Source: Alphaproteobacteria bacterium
GTDB lineage: Bacteria; Pseudomonadota; Alphaproteobacteria; Rs-D84
Reading direction: 5' to 3'
Assembly (NCBI GenBank): GCA_017535105.1
Contig: JAFXUI010000004.1
Coordinates: forward strand, 124,001 to 188,000
Length of the DNA stretch: 64,000 nucleotides
The position numbers were made by a program, and so were the translations under genes. The notes below the pieces were generated by a model. It made no database searches, was not told the origin of the DNA, and was given only the letters and a program-made list of their open reading frames with translations. Shown here one piece after another: positions 3,001 through 55,279 of this stretch (the first letter of the stretch is position 1; the number at the start of each line of letters is the position of its first letter).

Positions 3001-5396
3001 GCGGGTGTACCAAACAGATTTGCCAATGTCACTTTTGCCGTCATATTTTCGGTTGAAATCCAACCGGTATCACTTGCACCAGTAATGTCGGCGGTGATTT
3101 TAAGGTTGTCTGGGGTGAATTCTTGAACGCGGAAAGTCGCAGTTCCAATTTGGTCTGTGGTGCGATTTTTACTGCTTAACATAAACACATTTACATTATA
3201 TTCACCGATTGGGGCATTGTTTGATATTTGATATGTCACATCAAACATACCGTCACCCGTCAGATTTATCGTTTCTTCGCGTACGGTGCGACCACGTGCA
3301 TCTGTGATTTCCATTTTAATCGGCATACTGGCCAATTTTGTGAATGTCTTGTTTTTTACAATACCGGCGATTGTTGCGGTTTCGCCCGGGCGATAAATGC
3401 CACGATCTGAAAATACAAATGCGTTCATTGGACTGGTGCTGGTGGCGTATGCACCATCAATATCGAATTTAGAATATTCGACATGGGTGTCGTATGAATT
3501 GTATGGGATAAACGAAACATCATCTTCGTCACGAACAACGATGGCAACCGGCTGGCGTTCGTTGCGATATTCGTTGTATGCGAAATTCGGCATCGCGGCA
3601 AACCCATCATCATCGGTGCGGCCGGCCCAAATCGCGTTTCCATTGCGCCCCAATACAAAAACTTCGACATCTGCTGCGGGGTCGCCACTGTCCAATTCTG
3701 ATACAAATACAGACGATGTGCCGTCCAGCGCAACCTTGCGAATAATGCCCAGGTTCGTCAGCAATATTAAACGGCGGTCACTGTATTCGGCGGACGATTC
3801 CGTTGCGCCGGTTTGAATAACAAAAATTCCAGTTTGGTCATTTGCGGTGCGGTCCAAATAGTCACCCAAATCAACCGATGCATAATTTGTTTTGTTCATA
3901 GACGCGTTTGCAAAAGAAATGCGCTTTTGGAACACCGATGCCATATCATACACGCCAAATGACCACGACTTAAAATCAATATCTGGCGCAAAAACATTAT
4001 ATGTTTGGGATATAAGGTGGTTTATTTCGTTCGCTTTGATTTTGTACAGGTTGACATATGCCGTGTCCGCACCACCACGCGCCATAATCGTCAATTTCTG
4101 GTCGCCCGCCAATGACAACAACGCGCCAGTGCCGGCGATTTTAACCGTCTTTTCGGGATATGCGACCGGCAACACTTTATCAACACCGTTTTTCAGAACA
4201 AAGCCGGCATTTGATTTTATGCCACTGTGTACACGTACATATATGTACCGTTCGGAATCGTCAGAAACATCGTATGAAAACGCATATTGATATACACCAA
4301 TCGGATTTGCAAAATCGGTATGCTTTATATTCAATCTTTTAGAATTAGCCAACACTTTATCGCTTATTTCGTCATTTGCCCATTGGTGCGGGGTGTCTTC
4401 GTCTTTACTTGCATATTTAGGTAGCAAGTACACACCAACCACGTTTGACCAATTTGTTTTGCTGTCGGCGGCGGTTGTCATATCAACCAACACAAGTTGT
4501 TGCGAGTTCCCACGTACATCGTCTGCGGCGATTGATTTTAGCCCCGAAATCTTAAAGAAATTATCGACAGATTCAATGGTGGTGGTCGCGCTGACTTTTT
4601 TGGTGGCGGTATTTGTGGTCGCAGAATCAACACGGTTTATTTTCAATCGCAATGTATGTGTATCGTCATCAACGGCAATCGGATCGGTTGTGATTATTGC
4701 GGTTCGATTAAAACGGTCAAAACGCACATCAAAGTTCACACGATGCATTCCGCGCTTTACAGAAACGCGGTCAGAAAAACTTGCCGTTTCAATTGGATAA
4801 TTAAAAGATACAACTGCAACCCCAACGACATGACGTTCACGTGATGGGTCGGGATAGATATTGAAACTGTCAATTGTGGTGGCAATTTTTGGTGTCACAA
4901 AAGACGTGCCACGTGTATCGGGACGAACATCGGCGTTAAATAAAGATTTGCCGATTTTGACAGAATATTTTGTGTTGGGTAACCAATCGGTTTCTGGTGA
5001 AAAAACAATCGTGTTTGGACCGTGCATTGTCCATGTGCCACGCGTATATGGGGTGATTTTAATGTCGCGCGCGATGTCCGCACTGGTTAAATCTTGTTTG
5101 AACGTTGGGGCATATTCGCCCGCGGTCCAGTTATATGAAATAACCATCGGTTGAACCGTGGAAATTGTGCGGTTGTTGTTGGGGTCGGGCAGTCCAGTCG
5201 CGGTAACAAAATTGACCGTATTAGAATCCAAAAAGGCGGTTGGGGCGGGCGCAGGTACGGTAAGTGAAACGCGTGTCTTGTTGGGTGTGCCGATAAAAAA
5301 TGCCAAACACGCACAGATTACAATAACTGCGCCGGCAATAATACCAAGTACACGCAACCACTTACGTGATGATGTTTTTTGTTTTCTTCCTTTCAC
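1..5396 (-). CDS. Bacterial alpha-2-macroglobulin (3' end missing)
   Basis: Large envelope-anchored macroglobulin-like protein; about 1798 residues are visible and the C-terminus lies beyond the left edge. The start is GTG with a GGGGGA Shine-Dalgarno 7 bases upstream. Residues about 14-36 form one hydrophobic segment after a basic N-terminus, so it is probably inner-membrane anchored with the body in the periplasm rather than a lipoprotein. A CTEQ thioester motif (Cys codon at 1005-1007, about residue 1464) matches the CxEQ of thioester-type macroglobulins, which trap attacking proteases by covalent linkage. Before it lie the repeated beta-sandwich-like segments typical of MG domains; after it is a helical stretch expected of the thioester domain. 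Bacterial homologues are thought to protect the periplasm, often alongside a penicillin-binding protein. Here its neighbour is a subtilase on the same strand with its own promoter. Confidence 0.9.
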   Translation of the reverse strand, partial: MKGRKQKTSSRKWLRVLGIIAGAVIVICACLAFFIGTPNKTRVSLTVPAPAPTAFLDSNTVNFVTATGLPDPNNNRTISTVQPMVISYNWTAGEYAPTFKQDLTSADIARDIKITPYTRGTWTMHGPNTIVFSPETDWLPNTKYSVKIGKSLFNADVRPDTRGTSFVTPKIATTIDSFNIYPDPSRERHVVGVAVVSFNYPIETASFSDRVSVKRGMHRVNFDVRFDRFNRTAIITTDPIAVDDDTHTLRLKINRVDSATTNTATKKVSATTTIESVDNFFKISGLKSIAADDVRGNSQQLVLVDMTTAADSKTNWSNVVGVYLLPKYASKDEDTPHQWANDEISDKVLANSKRLNIKHTDFANPIGVYQYAFSYDVSDDSERYIYVRVHSGIKSNAGFVLKNGVDKVLPVAYPEKTVKIAGTGALLSLAGDQKLTIMARGGADTAYVNLYKIKANEINHLISQTYNVFAPDIDFKSWSFGVYDMASVFQKRISFANASMNKTNYASVDLGDYLDRTANDQTGIFVIQTGATESSAEYSDRRLILLTNLGIIRKVALDGTSSVFVSELDSGDPAADVEVFVLGRNGNAIWAGRTDDDGFAAMPNFAYNEYRNERQPVAIVVRDEDDVSFIPYNSYDTHVEYSKFDIDGAYATSTSPMNAFVFSDRGIYRPGETATIAGIVKNKTFTKLASMPIKMEITDARGRTVREETINLTGDGMFDVTYQISNNAPIGEYNVNVFMLSSKNRTTDQIGTATFRVQEFTPDNLKITADITGASDTGWISTENMTAKVTLANLFGTPASDKRIGAHATLRPIEFTFPEYKDYVFTPNFISGSGLSDNAANRAQTFSVDLPDVKTDENGNAILGINFNRTIPSGTYLMTLNITGFEGTSGTGVQTAITARASDAEYIVGYHADSNLNYVSRDDVRKIRFIALDSMGKPTSANNLNIRTIRRENLTSLIKDYNDFYKYQTITRDNVVSSTVFSISESGSDIRLNTTHGGTYFVQIVDNNDKILANIEYFVADASNTDLTTNTNGEMQIKLNAADYSAGEEIAVSITTPYIGTGLITIERDKVYAYKWFRTNSTTSVQKITLPAGFEGSGYVNVSFVRDINSRDVFTTPYTYAVAPFRASTSARKINIELSVPETITDNKLPITYNVSQNSKLMIFAVNTGILQVAKYKLPNPLAHFFQKSALQVETYQILSLLLPEYKILSEFAKTGGGDFAEMESGIGIALTNPFAHRTNKPIAFYSGIISARAGTSDTIIFDIPEYFNGAIRVFAVAASDTAVGSTDTETRVQSPIIVSTTAPLVVAPGDTFDVGTTITNMTNGTTATAVADISAEVSPNLAITTDTTQSLSIPYGAEKTWSFAVRTSNDLGNAEIKTSTEIRDGSDTVLSTRATSSSLSVRPITTYQTIIKTGVVKSSTITIRNFTTDMYPEFADTKLYLSSNNAIIARPLFQYLNKYEYPCTEQLVSTTMPYAIIPTNDVLGTTYAESKTKVGNTIATLKNRQNDDGSFDLWAGSDMARGNEYNANAAYLTAYVTMFLGIAKKSGFDVPKNMISRALDFLRTYAGTHITSDTDAATHAFVIYVLTENGYITTGYIDAFEEYANENIKNWKYDLMGAYIATAYKLLKQDTKANSLITKYRSSTRSKIDATNMFRSNVADDAMYAYLINNYFRAISTDGLGDTITEYINGGNYSSYTAAVIIMGAAGNISATQIAADDVTVTADGATIDLHNDNGNIVATVPQTARQMTVKCRKCDRKTPLYFTTISGGFPTNAKSDSNGIEISREYFDADGNRITS

Positions 5397-48065: not shown

Positions 48066-50924
48066 ATGAGTGGCGTTATAAAAATTCGCGGTGCACGCGA
48101 AAATAATCTTAAAAATATCGATTTAGACATACCAAAAAATAAATTGGTGGTCTTTACTGGCGTGTCTGGGTCGGGTAAATCGTCACTGGCATTTAATACC
48201 ATTTATGCCGAAGGCCAACGCCGCTATGTTGAAAGTTTATCATCATACGCCCGTCAATTCTTGGATATGCAGAAAAAGCCCGATGTTGATACTATCGAAG
48301 GTTTGTCACCTGCAATTTCAATTGAACAAAAGACCACGTCAAAAAATCCGCGTTCAACAGTTGGTACCGTAACCGAAATTTATGATTACTTACGTTTGCT
48401 GTGGGCGCGTGTCGGTGTGCCATATTCGCCGGTGACTGGGTTGCCGATTAAATCCCAGACAATTGCGGAAATGGTTGATTGGACGATGAAAATTCCGGCA
48501 ACAACAAAGATTTATGTTATGGCACCGTTGGTTCGCGACCGCAAGGGCGAATACAGAAAAGAAATAGCGTTTTTGATAAAGCAGGGCTATGTTCGTGCGA
48601 TTGTTGATGGGGAATTGTTTGATTTGGCTTCGGTGCCCCCGTTGGATAAAAACAAAAAGCACAATATATTTGTGATTGTTGACCGTTTGGCTATGCCGGC
48701 GGCAGATGCGTCTGAATCAGATGTCGAAGAATTCCGTTCGCGCCTGTATGCATCATTTGAGGGTTCGTTGCGATTGGTTCCGGGGTCGGTATTGGTTCGC
48801 CGTTTGGATACCAATGAAGATACGTTATATTCGCAAAACTATGCTTGCCCCGTCAGTGGTTTTACCGTTCCGAAAATCGAACCTCGTTTGTTTTCTTTTA
48901 ATGCGCCAATGGGCGCGTGCCAGGCGTGTGATGGTTTGGGTGTACAACTGGACTTTTCGCCCGACTTGGTTGTTCCCGACCCGTCAAAGTCCATATTGGG
49001 TGGCGCGATTGCGCCTTGGTCGCGTGGCGGAATGTTGACCCAGTATGATCATTTATTGGACGCAATACATAAAAAATTCAAGATTCCATTATCAAAACCG
49101 TGGCACACACTGACCGCTGAACAGAAAAATATTATTTTGTATGGCAGTGGTGACGAGCCGATAAAAATAAACTGGAACGGTTTTGTATATGAAAAACCAT
49201 ACGAAGGTGTAATACCAAACCTTGAACGCCGTTGGCGTGAATCTGAATCAGATATGATGCGCGCAGAAATCGCGAAATATCAGTCTGAAAAACCATGCCC
49301 CATGTGCCATGGTAAACGTCTTAATATCCAGGCGTTGTGTATAAAAATAAACGGTGCAGACATTATTGATGTCTGTGATATGGCGGTTGATGATTCTTTA
49401 AAGTGGTTCACCGATTTGCCGAATCATTTAACCCAAAAAGAAAACGATATTGCGCGTGTGATATTGCGTGAAATTACAAGCCGCTTACATTTCTTACAAA
49501 ACGTTGGTTTGGGCTATTTAACATTGTCGCGTATGGCGGGGACGTTGTCGGGCGGTGAATCACAACGAATTCGCCTTGCTTCGCAAATCGGCAGTGGTTT
49601 GTCGGGTGTTCTGTACGTGTTGGACGAACCGTCAATTGGTTTGCACCAAAGTGATAATGACAAATTGCTGGAAACGTTAAAAATGCTGCGGGACAAGGAT
49701 AACACAGTCATCGTTGTTGAACATGACGAAGATGCGATGCGTGCAGCGGACTATTTGGTCGATATTGGACGTGGCGCGGGTATAAATGGTGGAAACGTTG
49801 TTGTCGCGGGCACGCCAGACGCGGTTATTAAATGTAAAGATTCTTTGACCGGGCAATACCTTGCGGGCAAGCGCAAGATAGATGTTCCGAAAAAACGGCG
49901 CGCGGGCAACGGCAATTCAATCACGATTACTGGGGCGCGGGCGAACAACCTTAAAAACATAGATGTCGAGTTTCCGTTGGGTAAATTTATCGCGCTGACG
50001 GGTGTTTCGGGATCGGGCAAATCAACATTGTTGTTGGATACGTTATATCCTGCATTGATGCGCGCGCTGTATAATTCCAAGATTGAAACGGGCGCACACG
50101 ACACTGTGCGTGGTATGGAAAATGTGGATAAAGTGGTCGATATTGACCAATCGCCAATCGGGCGTACCCCACGCAGTAACCCGGCAACATATACGGGTGT
50201 GTTTTCCGATATCCGCGATTTTTTTGCAGAATTGCCAGAGGCCAAAGCACGTGGCTATACACCGGGTCGTTTCTCGTTTAATGTAAAGGGTGGACGTTGC
50301 GAAGCGTGCCAGGGTGATGGCCAGATAAAGATTGAAATGAACTTTTTGGCGGACGTGTATGTTGAATGCGATAAATGCCACGGAACGCGCTATAACGAAG
50401 AAACTTTGGCGGTAAAGTACAAGGGCAAATCGATTGCCGATGTTTTAAATATGACGGTGGAAGAGGCATACCGCTATTTCATCAACGTGCCAAAGATTAA
50501 ACGTAAATTGGAACTGCTACGCCGGGTCGGTATGGACTATATCAAACTGGGCCAAAGTTCACTTGATTTGTCGGGTGGCGAAGCACAACGTATAAAACTG
50601 TCACGCGAATTGTCGGCGCACAGCACCGGTCAGACAATTTACATTTTGGACGAACCGACAACGGGTCTTCATTTCGAAGATATTAAATTGTTATTGTCGG
50701 TATTACACGAATTAGTGGACGCGGGCAATACTGTAATTGTCATTGAACACAACTTGGAAGTTATTAAAACGGCCGATTGGGTAATTGATTTGGGACCGGG
50801 TGGTGGTATCAATGGCGGACGTGTGGTGGCGACGGGTACACCGGAACAGGTTGCCGCGGTTTCAGATTCACTTACTGGACAATATTTAAAGAAGTATCTG
50901 GACAAACCGCGTTCTGTAAAATAA
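48066..50924 (+). CDS. uvrA: UvrABC excinuclease subunit A
   Basis: DNA-damage-sensing ATPase of 952 residues with two ABC domains. First Walker [13 protein letters not shown] (about residue 32), first signature [12 protein letters not shown]; second Walker [13 protein letters not shown] (about 649), second signature [12 protein letters not shown]; both Walker B regions ([20 protein letters not shown]). Zinc-binding cysteines are in CQACDGLG (about 285), CPMCHGKRL and CEACQGDGQ...CDKCHGTR. Complete and ordinary. The start lacks a Shine-Dalgarno and sits 7 bases after the -10 box. Confidence 0.98.
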
Positions 50925-50951
50925 GATTATAAGAAATAAAAGGAGTAATAA

Positions 50952-51467
50952 ATGTTTGGTTTCGGAAAAAAGAAAACAGTAAAAGCGCCAGTCGATGAAA
51001 ACACGACTTCGGTTGAAAGTGGGGCACAAGAACCAAAAATGCCATCGGGCATGAAAGAAACTGCCCAGCGCATGATGTCGGGTGAATTTGACTTGAATGA
51101 TATGTTGGCGCAATTGAAACAGATTAAAAAGATGAGCAATTTTAGTGGTCTGTTGAAAATGGTGCCGGGTATGTCGGGTGCGGTGAACGCTATGAAGGAA
51201 AAAATCAAAGACGGCAGTGTTGATGCCCAAATTAAAATATTGGAGGCCATGACCGTCGCCGAACGTGCCGACCCAGAAAAGATTTTTGCCAATGCCAAGG
51301 CACGTATTGCGGAAACGGCGGGTTGTACAGTACGCGAAGTTGAACATATTATTAAGCAATACACTAAAATGAAACAGCAAATGGCGATGATTCAACGTAT
51401 GGGCGGAATGGAGGCCGTAATGCAACGTATGCAGGCAGCAGGCACAATGCCGGGGGGAATGAAATAA
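50952..51467 (+). CDS. Free-standing SRP54/Ffh M-domain-like protein
   Basis: Protein of 171 residues that aligns by eye with only the C-terminal M domain of Ffh: FDLNDMLAQLKQIKKM, SGLLKMVPGM, ILEAMTVAERADPEKIF, VREVEHIIKQYTKM and a Met/Gly-rich tail. The N and GTPase domains are entirely absent. In Ffh the segment GSRKRRIA-GSG binds 4.5S RNA; here it is FANAKARIAETAGC, so most RNA-contacting Arg/Lys are lost while the Met-rich signal-peptide groove is kept. It may be an independent chaperone for hydrophobic segments or a regulator of SRP. Strong Shine-Dalgarno AAGGAG, 27 bases after uvrA. Confidence 0.72.
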   Translation: MFGFGKKKTVKAPVDENTTSVESGAQEPKMPSGMKETAQRMMSGEFDLNDMLAQLKQIKKMSNFSGLLKMVPGMSGAVNAMKEKIKDGSVDAQIKILEAMTVAERADPEKIFANAKARIAETAGCTVREVEHIIKQYTKMKQQMAMIQRMGGMEAVMQRMQAAGTMPGGMK

Positions 51468-51498: not shown

Positions 51499-51795
51499 AT
51501 GGCAGTTATCAAAGAGTTTATAGACAATATTTTCAATAATCCGCCCATAGACGTGTGTTTGCCACGTGCGTTCACGGTGTTTTATCGTGATGTCGGCAAG
51601 CGGGTTGAGGCATATATGGTCGAAGTCACATATAAAAACGACAAACACAAAGAGTTCACTTTTCCGGTGGATAACGACCATTGGAAATTGGTGTCAAAAG
51701 ATCGTGCATATAAACGTGCGATGGCCTTTTATCGTCGCCAGCGTGCGAAAGTTCGGGCATATAACAGATTGCATCGCAATGAAAATAGTAAATAA
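51499..51795 (+). CDS. Small basic protein, tandem paralogue 1
   Basis: A 98-residue cytoplasmic protein, beta-rich first half (VFYRDVGKRVEAYMVEVTYKN region) and Arg/Lys-rich helical end (RAMAFYRRQRAKVRAYNRLH), so nucleic-acid binding is plausible. It is clearly homologous to 51829-52110 over its whole length. Shine-Dalgarno AAAGG. Its last codons overlap the start of a 14-codon fossil of the rlmE N-terminus. No named family. Confidence 0.75.
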   Translation: MAVIKEFIDNIFNNPPIDVCLPRAFTVFYRDVGKRVEAYMVEVTYKNDKHKEFTFPVDNDHWKLVSKDRAYKRAMAFYRRQRAKVRAYNRLHRNENSK

Positions 51796-51828: not shown

Positions 51829-52110
51829 ATGGCAAATCTTTTCACAGCAGTTATAAAAAACACTTTTACACCAACACCAGTGAGCGTAACTTTTCCAAGT
51901 AGATTTAAGGTTGAAGACAATGATAACGGTGAACAAGTTGAGGCGTATCAGATACTTGTAACATATAAGAACGGAAGAGTTAAAGGGTTCTCGTTTCCTG
52001 TAAATGACAACAAATCCATTGCATACATGCACGCAATGAAATTTTATCTGCGTCAAAAAGAACGGATTAGTGCTTATTACACATTACACGGCAATGAAAA
52101 TACTAAATAA
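51829..52110 (+). CDS. Small basic protein, tandem paralogue 2
   Basis: A 93-residue protein homologous to 51499-51795: shared VEAYxxxVTYKN, FxFPVxDN, AMxFYxRQ and HxNENxK blocks. Shine-Dalgarno AAAGG before ATG. It overlaps rlmE by 17 bases, so its translation probably feeds into rlmE. The pairing with rlmE looks ancestral, because the fossil shows the first copy once had the same overlap. Confidence 0.75.
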   Translation: MANLFTAVIKNTFTPTPVSVTFPSRFKVEDNDNGEQVEAYQILVTYKNGRVKGFSFPVNDNKSIAYMHAMKFYLRQKERISAYYTLHGNENTK

Positions 52111-52753
52111 GAAAATTGCACAGCATAAATCTTCGGTTGCGTGGCTTCAACGCCAGGCATCTGATCCATATGTTGCGCGCGCGCACCGTGACGGTTATCG
52201 GGCGCGGGCGGCATATAAACTGATTGAAATGAACGAAAAATTTCATTTCTTGAAAAATGGCCAGGTTGTTGTCGATTTGGGTGCTGCGCCGGGTTCGTGG
52301 TCCCAGTATGTCGCGCGTGAATATCCGAAAACAAAAGTCTTTGCGATGGACTTGCTGGAAATAAAACCAATTCCAAACGTCACGTTTTACCAGGGCGATT
52401 TTACCACAGATGAAGCATTACAATGGTTGGAATCAGAGTTGGGTTTATCGTCTGATGAAATCGGTAATGGTACGGCGGACGTTGTTATGTCGGATATGGC
52501 GCCAAATACTGTTGGTCATAAAAAGACCGATCATTTACGTCAAATGGTATTGTTGGAATATGCGCTGGACTTTGCGTTGCACGCGTTACGGCCGGGTGGG
52601 GTGTTTGTTGCCAAATCGTTCACCGGCGGTTCAACGGGCGATTTGATACGGCAAATGAAAAATAACTTTGATTCGGTTCAGCAGGTAAAACCCCCCGCAT
52701 CGCGCAAAGACAGCGTGGAAATGTTCATTGTGGCAACGGGTTTTCATAAATAA
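52094..52753 (+). CDS. rlmE: 23S rRNA 2'-O-ribose U2552 methyltransferase
   Basis: SAM-dependent enzyme of 219 residues (FtsJ/RrmJ family) acting on the ribosomal A-loop. The K-D-K-E tetrad is visible: RARAAYKL, SDMAPNTVG, VAKSFTGG and VEMFIVATGF; the SAM motif is VVDLGAAPGSWSQ. I chose the ATG at 52094, which overlaps the preceding gene and follows no strong Shine-Dalgarno, so coupling is likely. Closed by a terminator. Confidence 0.95.
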   Translation: MKILNKKIAQHKSSVAWLQRQASDPYVARAHRDGYRARAAYKLIEMNEKFHFLKNGQVVVDLGAAPGSWSQYVAREYPKTKVFAMDLLEIKPIPNVTFYQGDFTTDEALQWLESELGLSSDEIGNGTADVVMSDMAPNTVGHKKTDHLRQMVLLEYALDFALHALRPGGVFVAKSFTGGSTGDLIRQMKNNFDSVQQVKPPASRKDSVEMFIVATGFHK

Positions 52754-53231: not shown

Positions 53232-53308
53232 AAAGCAAAGGAAATAATAAGTTTTGGCCGTTGTTTGTATTGTACAAATGGCGGAAATCTGGGGGAAAGG
53301 GGAATAAA

Positions 53309-55279
53309 ATGAATCGGAATAAAAGCCGTTTTGTGACGCTTGTTTTTTCGTGTTTCTTTGCGATATTTGTGGTTGGTAATGCATTTGCTGTGTCGTGCAC
53401 CAGTTCACAGTATGTGACTTCTAGTGGTCATTATTGCCGATCATGTGACGAAGTCGGCCCCAGCAGTGCCGCATATACATGTAAGAATAATTATGTCACA
53501 TGTAAAAGCGGTTATGTCAAGACGTTCAGTCGTATTTATTTGTACAGCAGCAGTGGCAGTTTAGAGGCAGAATATTGTTGCCCATCCGCGCAAGCATATA
53601 CGGATGCTGGTGGTACATATCGCTGTTTAACCCAATGGAGTGGTTATTATTCCAACAAGCAGGGTACAGAGTACGACAATGGCGCAACAGTTTCCGGTGG
53701 TACATATACATGTCCATCGGGATATACGCGCGTAATGAAACCATTTGCTGGGTACGCTGACACCTCGGGTGGTTCTGGAAAAGTGAAGTATGATACTCCG
53801 CAATATGCATGCTGTTTAACCGCAAATACATATTTGGGTCCGGATGGTACAACCAAGTTTTGTGCCGATGATGGAACAAATTTGCATTACACCCGTAACG
53901 ACTTAAGTGCATTTATTGAGGAAAAGTCAAATGGCACCAAAGAGTTCAAGTGTCTTGCAACTGGGTGGACGAACTATGGCAATCGTAACTTTCGTGCGGC
54001 AATAATGAATCGTGACTATCTTAATACGCCAAATGTTTTTTCATATTGGGATTGTCAGTCAGTTTTGTATAGCAGCAATGTCCCCTGTTCAGAGTCCTAT
54101 TCACCATCGGGAATTAACTGTAACAGTGGTAATTTTACAGTAAATTGTTACAGCCCGAAAACGAACAGCTCTGGCAAGGTGACCGGTTATAATTATAACA
54201 AGGCGGGATATGCAATGGATGGTACGTCGTTCAGGGGATGCGAAGTAAATGTGACAATAACGGGTAAAACGGGTTGTACAGATAACCAAGTTGTATATCA
54301 TTATGATTTAAACACAAGTGGCAGTTATGCACCAAGTACTATTCTTTATAACAGCACGCGATATGATACGGTGGTGGGCACATTTTTTGATATTTATTCT
54401 GTAGAAACAGCGGAATGGTTGGTCAAAGGTTACACATTTACCGCCCAAGGGGGATATCGTAAAAACACATCAAATGGTACATGTGTTCAGTGTTCCGCGG
54501 GAACTTATTCGGCGGGTGGAAATGTAACAGCTTGTGCTAATTGCTACGGTGGCAAATACGGTACTACGGCGGGCGCGACATCGTGCAATGGTACGTGCGC
54601 AAAGGGAACGTATTCCGATTGGTCTGGACCAAAAACGTCGTGCACCGCTTGTACTGGTGCTACGTATGCACCAAACACAGGGATGGATAAGTGTTTGGAC
54701 GTGCCATATAACGCATCTGTGAACAGCGCACATGACGACATTAGCTGTCAAGCTGGCTATTACAAAAGCACAAACCGTTATTCTGGTGAACCATGGTATT
54801 TCTGTCCCCCATGTCCACGTCATTATGGCAATTCATGTCCATGGACTGTTGACGAAATGGCTTCTACTTATAACGGAACTACTGACTCAAGTGGTGCGAC
54901 ATCAATAACCCAATGTAAAGCATCTATGGTGCTTACCGACAGCAAGGGAACCTATACACAAAGCGCCACATATTCTGGTGATGACTATGTGACAATTGGG
55001 CTTGATACGAACGGTTGGGGCCAAGTCGCAAATAATCTTGGTGGTGTCCAAAATCTGGTTCCGACTTTCTACGGTATGTGTGCCCAGGGGTATTTCCCAT
55101 GGTCGGGTATTGAGGATTATCCAGATAATGGTGTATCGGCTTTGTTGGATTATCAGTGGGTTGTCGGGAGTAATGGAACGTGGAATTACTTATACGTGCC
55201 GATGGGTATCGCCCAAATAATATACCGTGATTTGACTTATGCTGGCTACAGTGATTTATTCACATATTATGATTATTAA
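53309..55279 (+). CDS. Second cysteine-rich secreted surface protein
   Basis: Secreted protein of 656 residues; ATG at 53309 after AAGGGGAA. Signal peptide ends GNAFAVSC. The mature protein has many Cys with Gly/Tyr/Thr-rich spacing; residues about 395-480 contain classical GCC2/GCC3-like modules (CVQCSAGTYSAGGNVTACANC, YGGKYGTTAGATSC, ACTGATYAPNTGMDKC). No C-terminal anchor. It resembles the protein at 7584-10139 in design but not in detailed sequence, so the two belong to a family of divergent adhesin-like proteins. Ends before a strong terminator. Confidence 0.8.
   Translation: MNRNKSRFVTLVFSCFFAIFVVGNAFAVSCTSSQYVTSSGHYCRSCDEVGPSSAAYTCKNNYVTCKSGYVKTFSRIYLYSSSGSLEAEYCCPSAQAYTDAGGTYRCLTQWSGYYSNKQGTEYDNGATVSGGTYTCPSGYTRVMKPFAGYADTSGGSGKVKYDTPQYACCLTANTYLGPDGTTKFCADDGTNLHYTRNDLSAFIEEKSNGTKEFKCLATGWTNYGNRNFRAAIMNRDYLNTPNVFSYWDCQSVLYSSNVPCSESYSPSGINCNSGNFTVNCYSPKTNSSGKVTGYNYNKAGYAMDGTSFRGCEVNVTITGKTGCTDNQVVYHYDLNTSGSYAPSTILYNSTRYDTVVGTFFDIYSVETAEWLVKGYTFTAQGGYRKNTSNGTCVQCSAGTYSAGGNVTACANCYGGKYGTTAGATSCNGTCAKGTYSDWSGPKTSCTACTGATYAPNTGMDKCLDVPYNASVNSAHDDISCQAGYYKSTNRYSGEPWYFCPPCPRHYGNSCPWTVDEMASTYNGTTDSSGATSITQCKASMVLTDSKGTYTQSATYSGDDYVTIGLDTNGWGQVANNLGGVQNLVPTFYGMCAQGYFPWSGIEDYPDNGVSALLDYQWVVGSNGTWNYLYVPMGIAQIIYRDLTYAGYSDLFTYYDY

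Follow-up and report, generated by a model that had tools for sequence, protein, structure and literature searches.

To our knowledge, the signal recognition particle (SRP) is taught as universal, with a pair of GTPases and an RNA as its components. The M domain of Ffh binds the signal sequence and sits at the tunnel exit of the E. coli ribosome on the 23S rRNA with its C-terminus extending into the tunnel, the NG domains hold uL23/uL29 and carry out the GTPase dialogue with FtsY, and the SRP RNA reaches bL32 (PMC4737761). An M domain that stands alone has been described in mitochondria: MAP67/mL105 is derived from Ffh, lacks the NG part, resides in a compartment that is mostly devoid of SRP and has been proposed to act as a targeting factor at the tunnel exit (PMC8321541). 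Indeed, mL105 has been located, as an M domain without NG, at the tunnel exit of the mitoribosome (PMC7326499), and it contacts density that was assigned to the insertase (PMC9576764). Life without SRP has been found possible in S. mutans and in suppressed E. coli mutants (PMC7844537), and ffh is not listed among the shared Sec genes of insect endosymbionts such as Portiera and Carsonella (PMC4122945). Hence, there is precedent both for M-only proteins, in mitochondria, and for the loss of SRP, in mutants and, as it seems, in certain extreme endosymbionts.

We have analyzed a stretch of 64,000 nucleotides (the window) from a genome of 0.87 Mb (6 contigs, 96% complete) that belongs to Candidatus Enterousia, a group of gut alphaproteobacteria with reduced genomes within the order Rs-D84 (PMC12306168). 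The window encodes, on the forward strand at 50952..51467, a protein of 171 residues that starts with ATG and that we annotate as an M-only SRP protein, i.e. a truncated ffh orthologue, on the basis of its Pfam match and the synteny with ffh in sister genera. The Shine-Dalgarno sequence AAGGAG, already pointed out in the original prediction, is located upstream of the ATG at 50940..50945 (+), and those loci of the genus that have an intact start show an AGGAG-like site ahead of it. The prediction that the protein resembles an Ffh M domain and lacks the GTPase part was borne out by sequence and fold alike. The full Pfam profile SRP_SPB (PF02978, positions 1-91) matches residues 45-144 with an E-value of 6e-23. 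These residues (51084..51383, +) form the M domain proper, in which the Met-rich hydrophobic helices and the finger loop have been kept. The match to the NCBIfam ffh model (TIGR00959) is confined to the last 115 positions (313-427 of 428), and the top phmmer matches in the PDB are Ffh M domains. An AlphaFold2 model was made with 36 sequences of the genus as input, the confidence of which is moderate (mean pLDDT 64; about 74-87 at residues 90-149). Its best structural matches are all M domains of SRP54/Ffh (Z 12-13), M-domain and signal-sequence-bound structures ranking at the top. Lower scores were obtained for mL105 of the mitoribosome and its counterparts in T. gondii (Z 7.6-9.8; Z 9.5 for mL105, 6z1p_AT). 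Among phage collections, more distant M-domain stretches were observed on unannotated faecal contigs.

The protein is present in a single copy and constitutes the sole M domain of the genome. A full-length ffh was looked for elsewhere and none is present. More specifically, no protein of the genome matches an SRP GTPase profile above the Pfam cut-off, which implies that both the Ffh NG domain and FtsY are missing, and an SRP RNA (RF00169) was not found in this genome. The best match to PF00448 (14.6 bits) is Der. A recurrent match of 15-20 bits in proteins of about 450 residues, considered as a hidden FtsY or Ffh, likewise proved to be Der/EngA, and the other weak PF00448 matches mostly extend over no more than a short segment of the profile, at its P-loop end.

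The same pattern extends over a whole clade. We surveyed 201 genomes of the order (threshold for SRP GTPases E<=1e-6; counts obtained by subtraction between tables) and compared an M-only group of 164 genomes, made up of Enterousia (156) and the genera g9, g10, g11, g12, g14 and g15 (8), with an SRP-bearing group of 37 genomes that comprises the genera g13 and g16-g20 of the same family together with other families. SRP GTPases are encoded in 36 of the 37 genomes of the latter group versus none of the 164 of the former, and the sole SRP-bearing-group genome without one (G213) is only 54% complete. FtsY is absent from all 164 clade genomes, including that of a relative with a closed, single chromosome of 1,001,484 bp (OX097180.1), which does have the short M protein and has no SRP GTPase. 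With the closed chromosome and 164 genomes showing the same pattern, missing sequence was rejected as the cause of the absence. Divergence of the RNA beyond the reach of Rfam was rejected as well: a covariance model derived from ten of the order's SRP RNAs recovered the RNA in 32 of 36 SRP-containing genomes, among them members of every SRP-containing genus within the family, and in none of the 164 clade genomes, albeit under strict filters by which weak matches could be lost. The short M protein itself was found in 154 of the 164 genomes, and most of the ten that have no copy are incomplete. One of these ten (G145) is rated 100% complete and lacks the neighbouring rlmE as well, so that an assembly gap is the probable cause, the alternative being a deletion of both genes. 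Where frame lengths are listed, they run to about 150-275 codons in the M-only genera versus about 390-570 in the SRP-containing relatives, except for one frame of the latter that is cut by a stop. The full-length ffh of the SRP-containing genus g18 (locus L257, G206:C8) carries a single in-frame TAG around position 5099 of the locus, in place of a conserved Gln codon in the G domain, which may be due to an error in sequencing or mean that the gene is either broken or recoded. Thus, the NG part of Ffh, FtsY and the RNA were lost together and the M domain stayed.

The genomic context reveals how the short gene came about. It is preceded by uvrA (48066..50924, +), which ends 27 bp before its start, and followed by rlmE, an ftsJ-type rRNA methyltransferase gene (52109..52753, +). 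As uvrA lies directly upstream, there is no GTPase domain that a frameshift could join to the protein. The occurrence of the short form beside uvrA in related genomes, a check proposed with the original prediction, was found in 78 of 80 loci of the genus, and rlmE is the downstream neighbour in an equal number. In the SRP-containing genera g16, g17, g18, g19 and g20 it is a full-length ffh that lies between uvrA and rlmE. The identity of the slot implies that the short gene is an ffh that was cut down in place, and since the protein begins close to where the GM linker ends, the NG domain must have been deleted and a short, new N-terminal sequence gained. In a tree of uvrA, g1, g9, g10 and g15 form one well-supported clade beside the SRP-containing genus g18; g14 is set apart with an unstable placement, and the test does not reject one clade of all M-only genera (p-AU 0.34). 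As a possible source of the new N-terminus, FtsY was considered: the sequence MFGFGKKK resembles MFGLGKKLSIFGKK of the FtsY of one relative within the order, over a length of only 8 residues that is too short for proof, whereas the FtsY of the sister genera starts with MGIFSKISS.

The distance between the M gene and rlmE varies and the gap holds small ORFs. In the window these are two paralogous frames (51499-51795 and 51829-52110, +; 98 and 93 residues) that are clearly similar to one another and have no Pfam match. Relatives of these frames occur in 15 and 2 of the 80 loci, respectively, which marks the gap as a variable spot. Near the locus we also observed a repetitive, cysteine-rich protein of 657 residues (53306-55279, +) with a signal-peptide-like sequence and no Pfam match.

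Certain positions in Ffh, Ser382, Ser397, Arg398, Arg401, Gly405 and Gly407 in E. coli numbering, we take to be contacts with the 4.5S RNA as seen in Ffh-RNA structures. A comparison of 87 short proteins with 22 full-length Ffh sequences of the order agreed with the expectation that most of the RNA contacts have been lost. Ser382 is replaced by Ala in 81 of the 87, Ser397 by Asn in all 87, and Arg398, invariant in the 22 Ffh sequences, by Ala in 86. The equally invariant Gly405 has become Thr, Ser or another residue; Arg401 and Gly407 are mostly retained. In the window the degenerated RNA-binding motif reads FANAKARIAETAG (51285..51323, +), as compared to (S/A)RKxRIAxG(S/A)G in the SRP-containing relatives, and the RNA-binding helix-turn-helix has acquired a new fixed sequence, NAKxRIAETAG. 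The net charge of the M core drops from +7.9 to +3.7, and this loss of basic residues might weaken the binding to rRNA too. The Met content (9.1 vs 9.9) and the positions of the hydrophobic groove and finger loop are retained.

The short M protein is under strong purifying selection, which is distributed unevenly over its parts: at synonymous sites that are near saturation, the mean pN/pS amounts to 0.11 in the M part, 0.022 in the first 8 residues and 0.73 in the linker. The first 8 residues, MFGFGKKK (50952..50975, +), are nearly invariant in the genus, where MFGF(G/I)(K/R)K(K/A) was found in 79 of 79 sequences with an intact start, and the other M-only genera start with MSWFSKKKK, MAWFSKKKK, MAWFGRSKK or MAFLGFGKKK. 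Judged by sequence, this succession of aromatic residues and lysines possibly resembles that of peripheral membrane anchors, and an affinity of so short a motif for the membrane is our guess. Residues 9-28 (50976..51035, +) make up the fast-evolving linker, which is probably disordered (pLDDT about 32-42). The C-terminal helices (residues 127-163; 51330..51440, +) are strongly conserved, and their counterparts in Ffh and mL105 reach into the ribosomal tunnel (PMC4737761, PMC7326499).

The remaining export machinery is ordinary. SecY, SecA, trigger factor and SecB are present both in the genome of the window and on the closed chromosome. YidC is present as well and ends without the long basic, Oxa1-like tail, so that a tail-based compensation by YidC, as put forward for other systems, is not evident. 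Compared with its counterparts in relatives within the order, the YidC of the genus (locus L178, G000:C3) is extended at the N-terminus, ahead of the first membrane helix, and has a longer polar segment in front of the last helices; these features may have to do with the loss of SRP.

Considering that the short protein keeps the M-domain parts of Ffh without the NG set, and taking MAP67/mL105 as a model, we propose that it acts as a receptor for nascent hydrophobic segments. With a probability of roughly 0.6, it is a signal-sequence receptor free of RNA and GTPase that operates at the ribosome exit or the membrane and arose from ffh by reduction in place. The Met-rich groove would most likely bind the hydrophobic signal or transmembrane segments of nascent chains, and the M-domain surface together with the C-terminal helices would probably seat the protein at the tunnel exit. 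The aromatic-basic N-terminus on its flexible linker may touch the membrane, and ribosome-nascent chain complexes could in this way be brought to, or held near, SecYEG/YidC and handed over without GTP switching, SRP RNA or receptor. Since Ffh holds on to the ribosome with its NG part and its RNA as well, ribosome binding by the M domain alone may be weak. Of the two roles suggested originally, that of a targeting chaperone thus appears the most likely one, as far as can be read from the sequence. The other, competition with or regulation of a normal SRP, starts from the consideration that an M domain by itself could capture a signal sequence, and has to be dismissed as practically impossible because there is no SRP in these genomes to compete with: Ffh NG, FtsY and SRP RNA are missing here and in 164 of 164 clade genomes.

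Other functions may be envisaged for a lone M domain. A constitutive factor resembling a ribosomal subunit, which like mL105 gives the tunnel exit its shape or fastens the ribosome to the membrane without selective signal recognition, would be in line with the structural match to 6z1p_AT and to the mitoribosomal homologues of T. gondii, with the conserved C-terminal helix and with the membrane-like N-terminal motif. A mere dock, however, has no need of a conserved groove and finger loop, and the best structural matches are to SRP54 proteins that bind signal sequences and not to mL105, which makes this explanation unlikely, though it is the foremost of the rivals. Somewhat less probable still is a free cytosolic holdase that would take care of hydrophobic segments post-translationally with SecB/SecA or YidC and without ribosome binding. 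The preserved Met-rich groove, the lost RNA contacts and the retention of SecB and SecA agree with such a role, but it leaves both the conserved tunnel-entering C-terminal helix and the N-terminal motif unexplained. The fixed NAKxRIAETAG sequence could be taken as a sign that the M domain has been repurposed for something other than protein targeting, for instance for nucleic-acid binding through its helix-turn-helix-like helices, or else the protein could be a decaying relic. The purifying selection at near-saturated synonymous sites excludes decay, and the conservation of the groove speaks for the original ligand, so that we consider this pair of explanations improbable.

We found no report in the open-access literature of a bacterium that lacks both SRP GTPases and the SRP RNA and still has an M domain, and the paper on the reduced Enterousia genomes does not mention SRP. 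In this clade of gut bacteria, the Sec machinery of which is ordinary, signal recognition appears to have been separated from the GTPase timer, and the short protein suggests what the minimal requirements of a targeting factor may be. Moreover, the sister genera with an intact SRP at the same locus offer a natural comparison of before and after, and the clade as a whole provides a bacterial parallel for the way in which mitochondria may have simplified their SRP. The far-reaching version of our proposal, in which the GTP- and RNA-driven SRP cycle of a clade of more than 150 species has been replaced by a minimal, one-domain, membrane-tethered signal-sequence receptor that re-enacts the step from Ffh to MAP67/mL105 presumed for mitochondria, has in our view an even chance of being correct.

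Among the known systems, Ffh/SRP54 (TIGR00959; PF02978, PF00448 and PF02881) is the one from which the short protein has clearly descended: the M fold and sequence are the same from end to end and so is the slot between uvrA and rlmE. It differs from Ffh in the absence of the N and G domains, the SRP RNA partner, the RNA-contact residues and FtsY, and in the presence of the new aromatic-basic motif and linker at its N-terminus. The RNA-less cpSRP54 of seed plants and the mtFfh of some protists have likewise lost the RNA and have mutated RNA-contact motifs (PMC8321541), yet these retain the NG GTPase and the FtsY receptor, neither of which is left in the clade. For the SRP-less mutants and endosymbionts no retained and selected M domain has been described, and S. 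mutans has YidC2 as its likely compensator, whereas the YidC of Enterousia lacks a long tail. MAP67/mL105 shares with the short protein an Ffh-type M domain without NG (Z 9.5). Nevertheless, the sequence of the short protein is nearer to Ffh (phmmer 1e-15 versus 0.002), and it is a bacterial protein that originated in place, in a single family in which SecY, SecA and SecB have been retained, so that its likeness to the mitochondrial protein is best seen as convergent.
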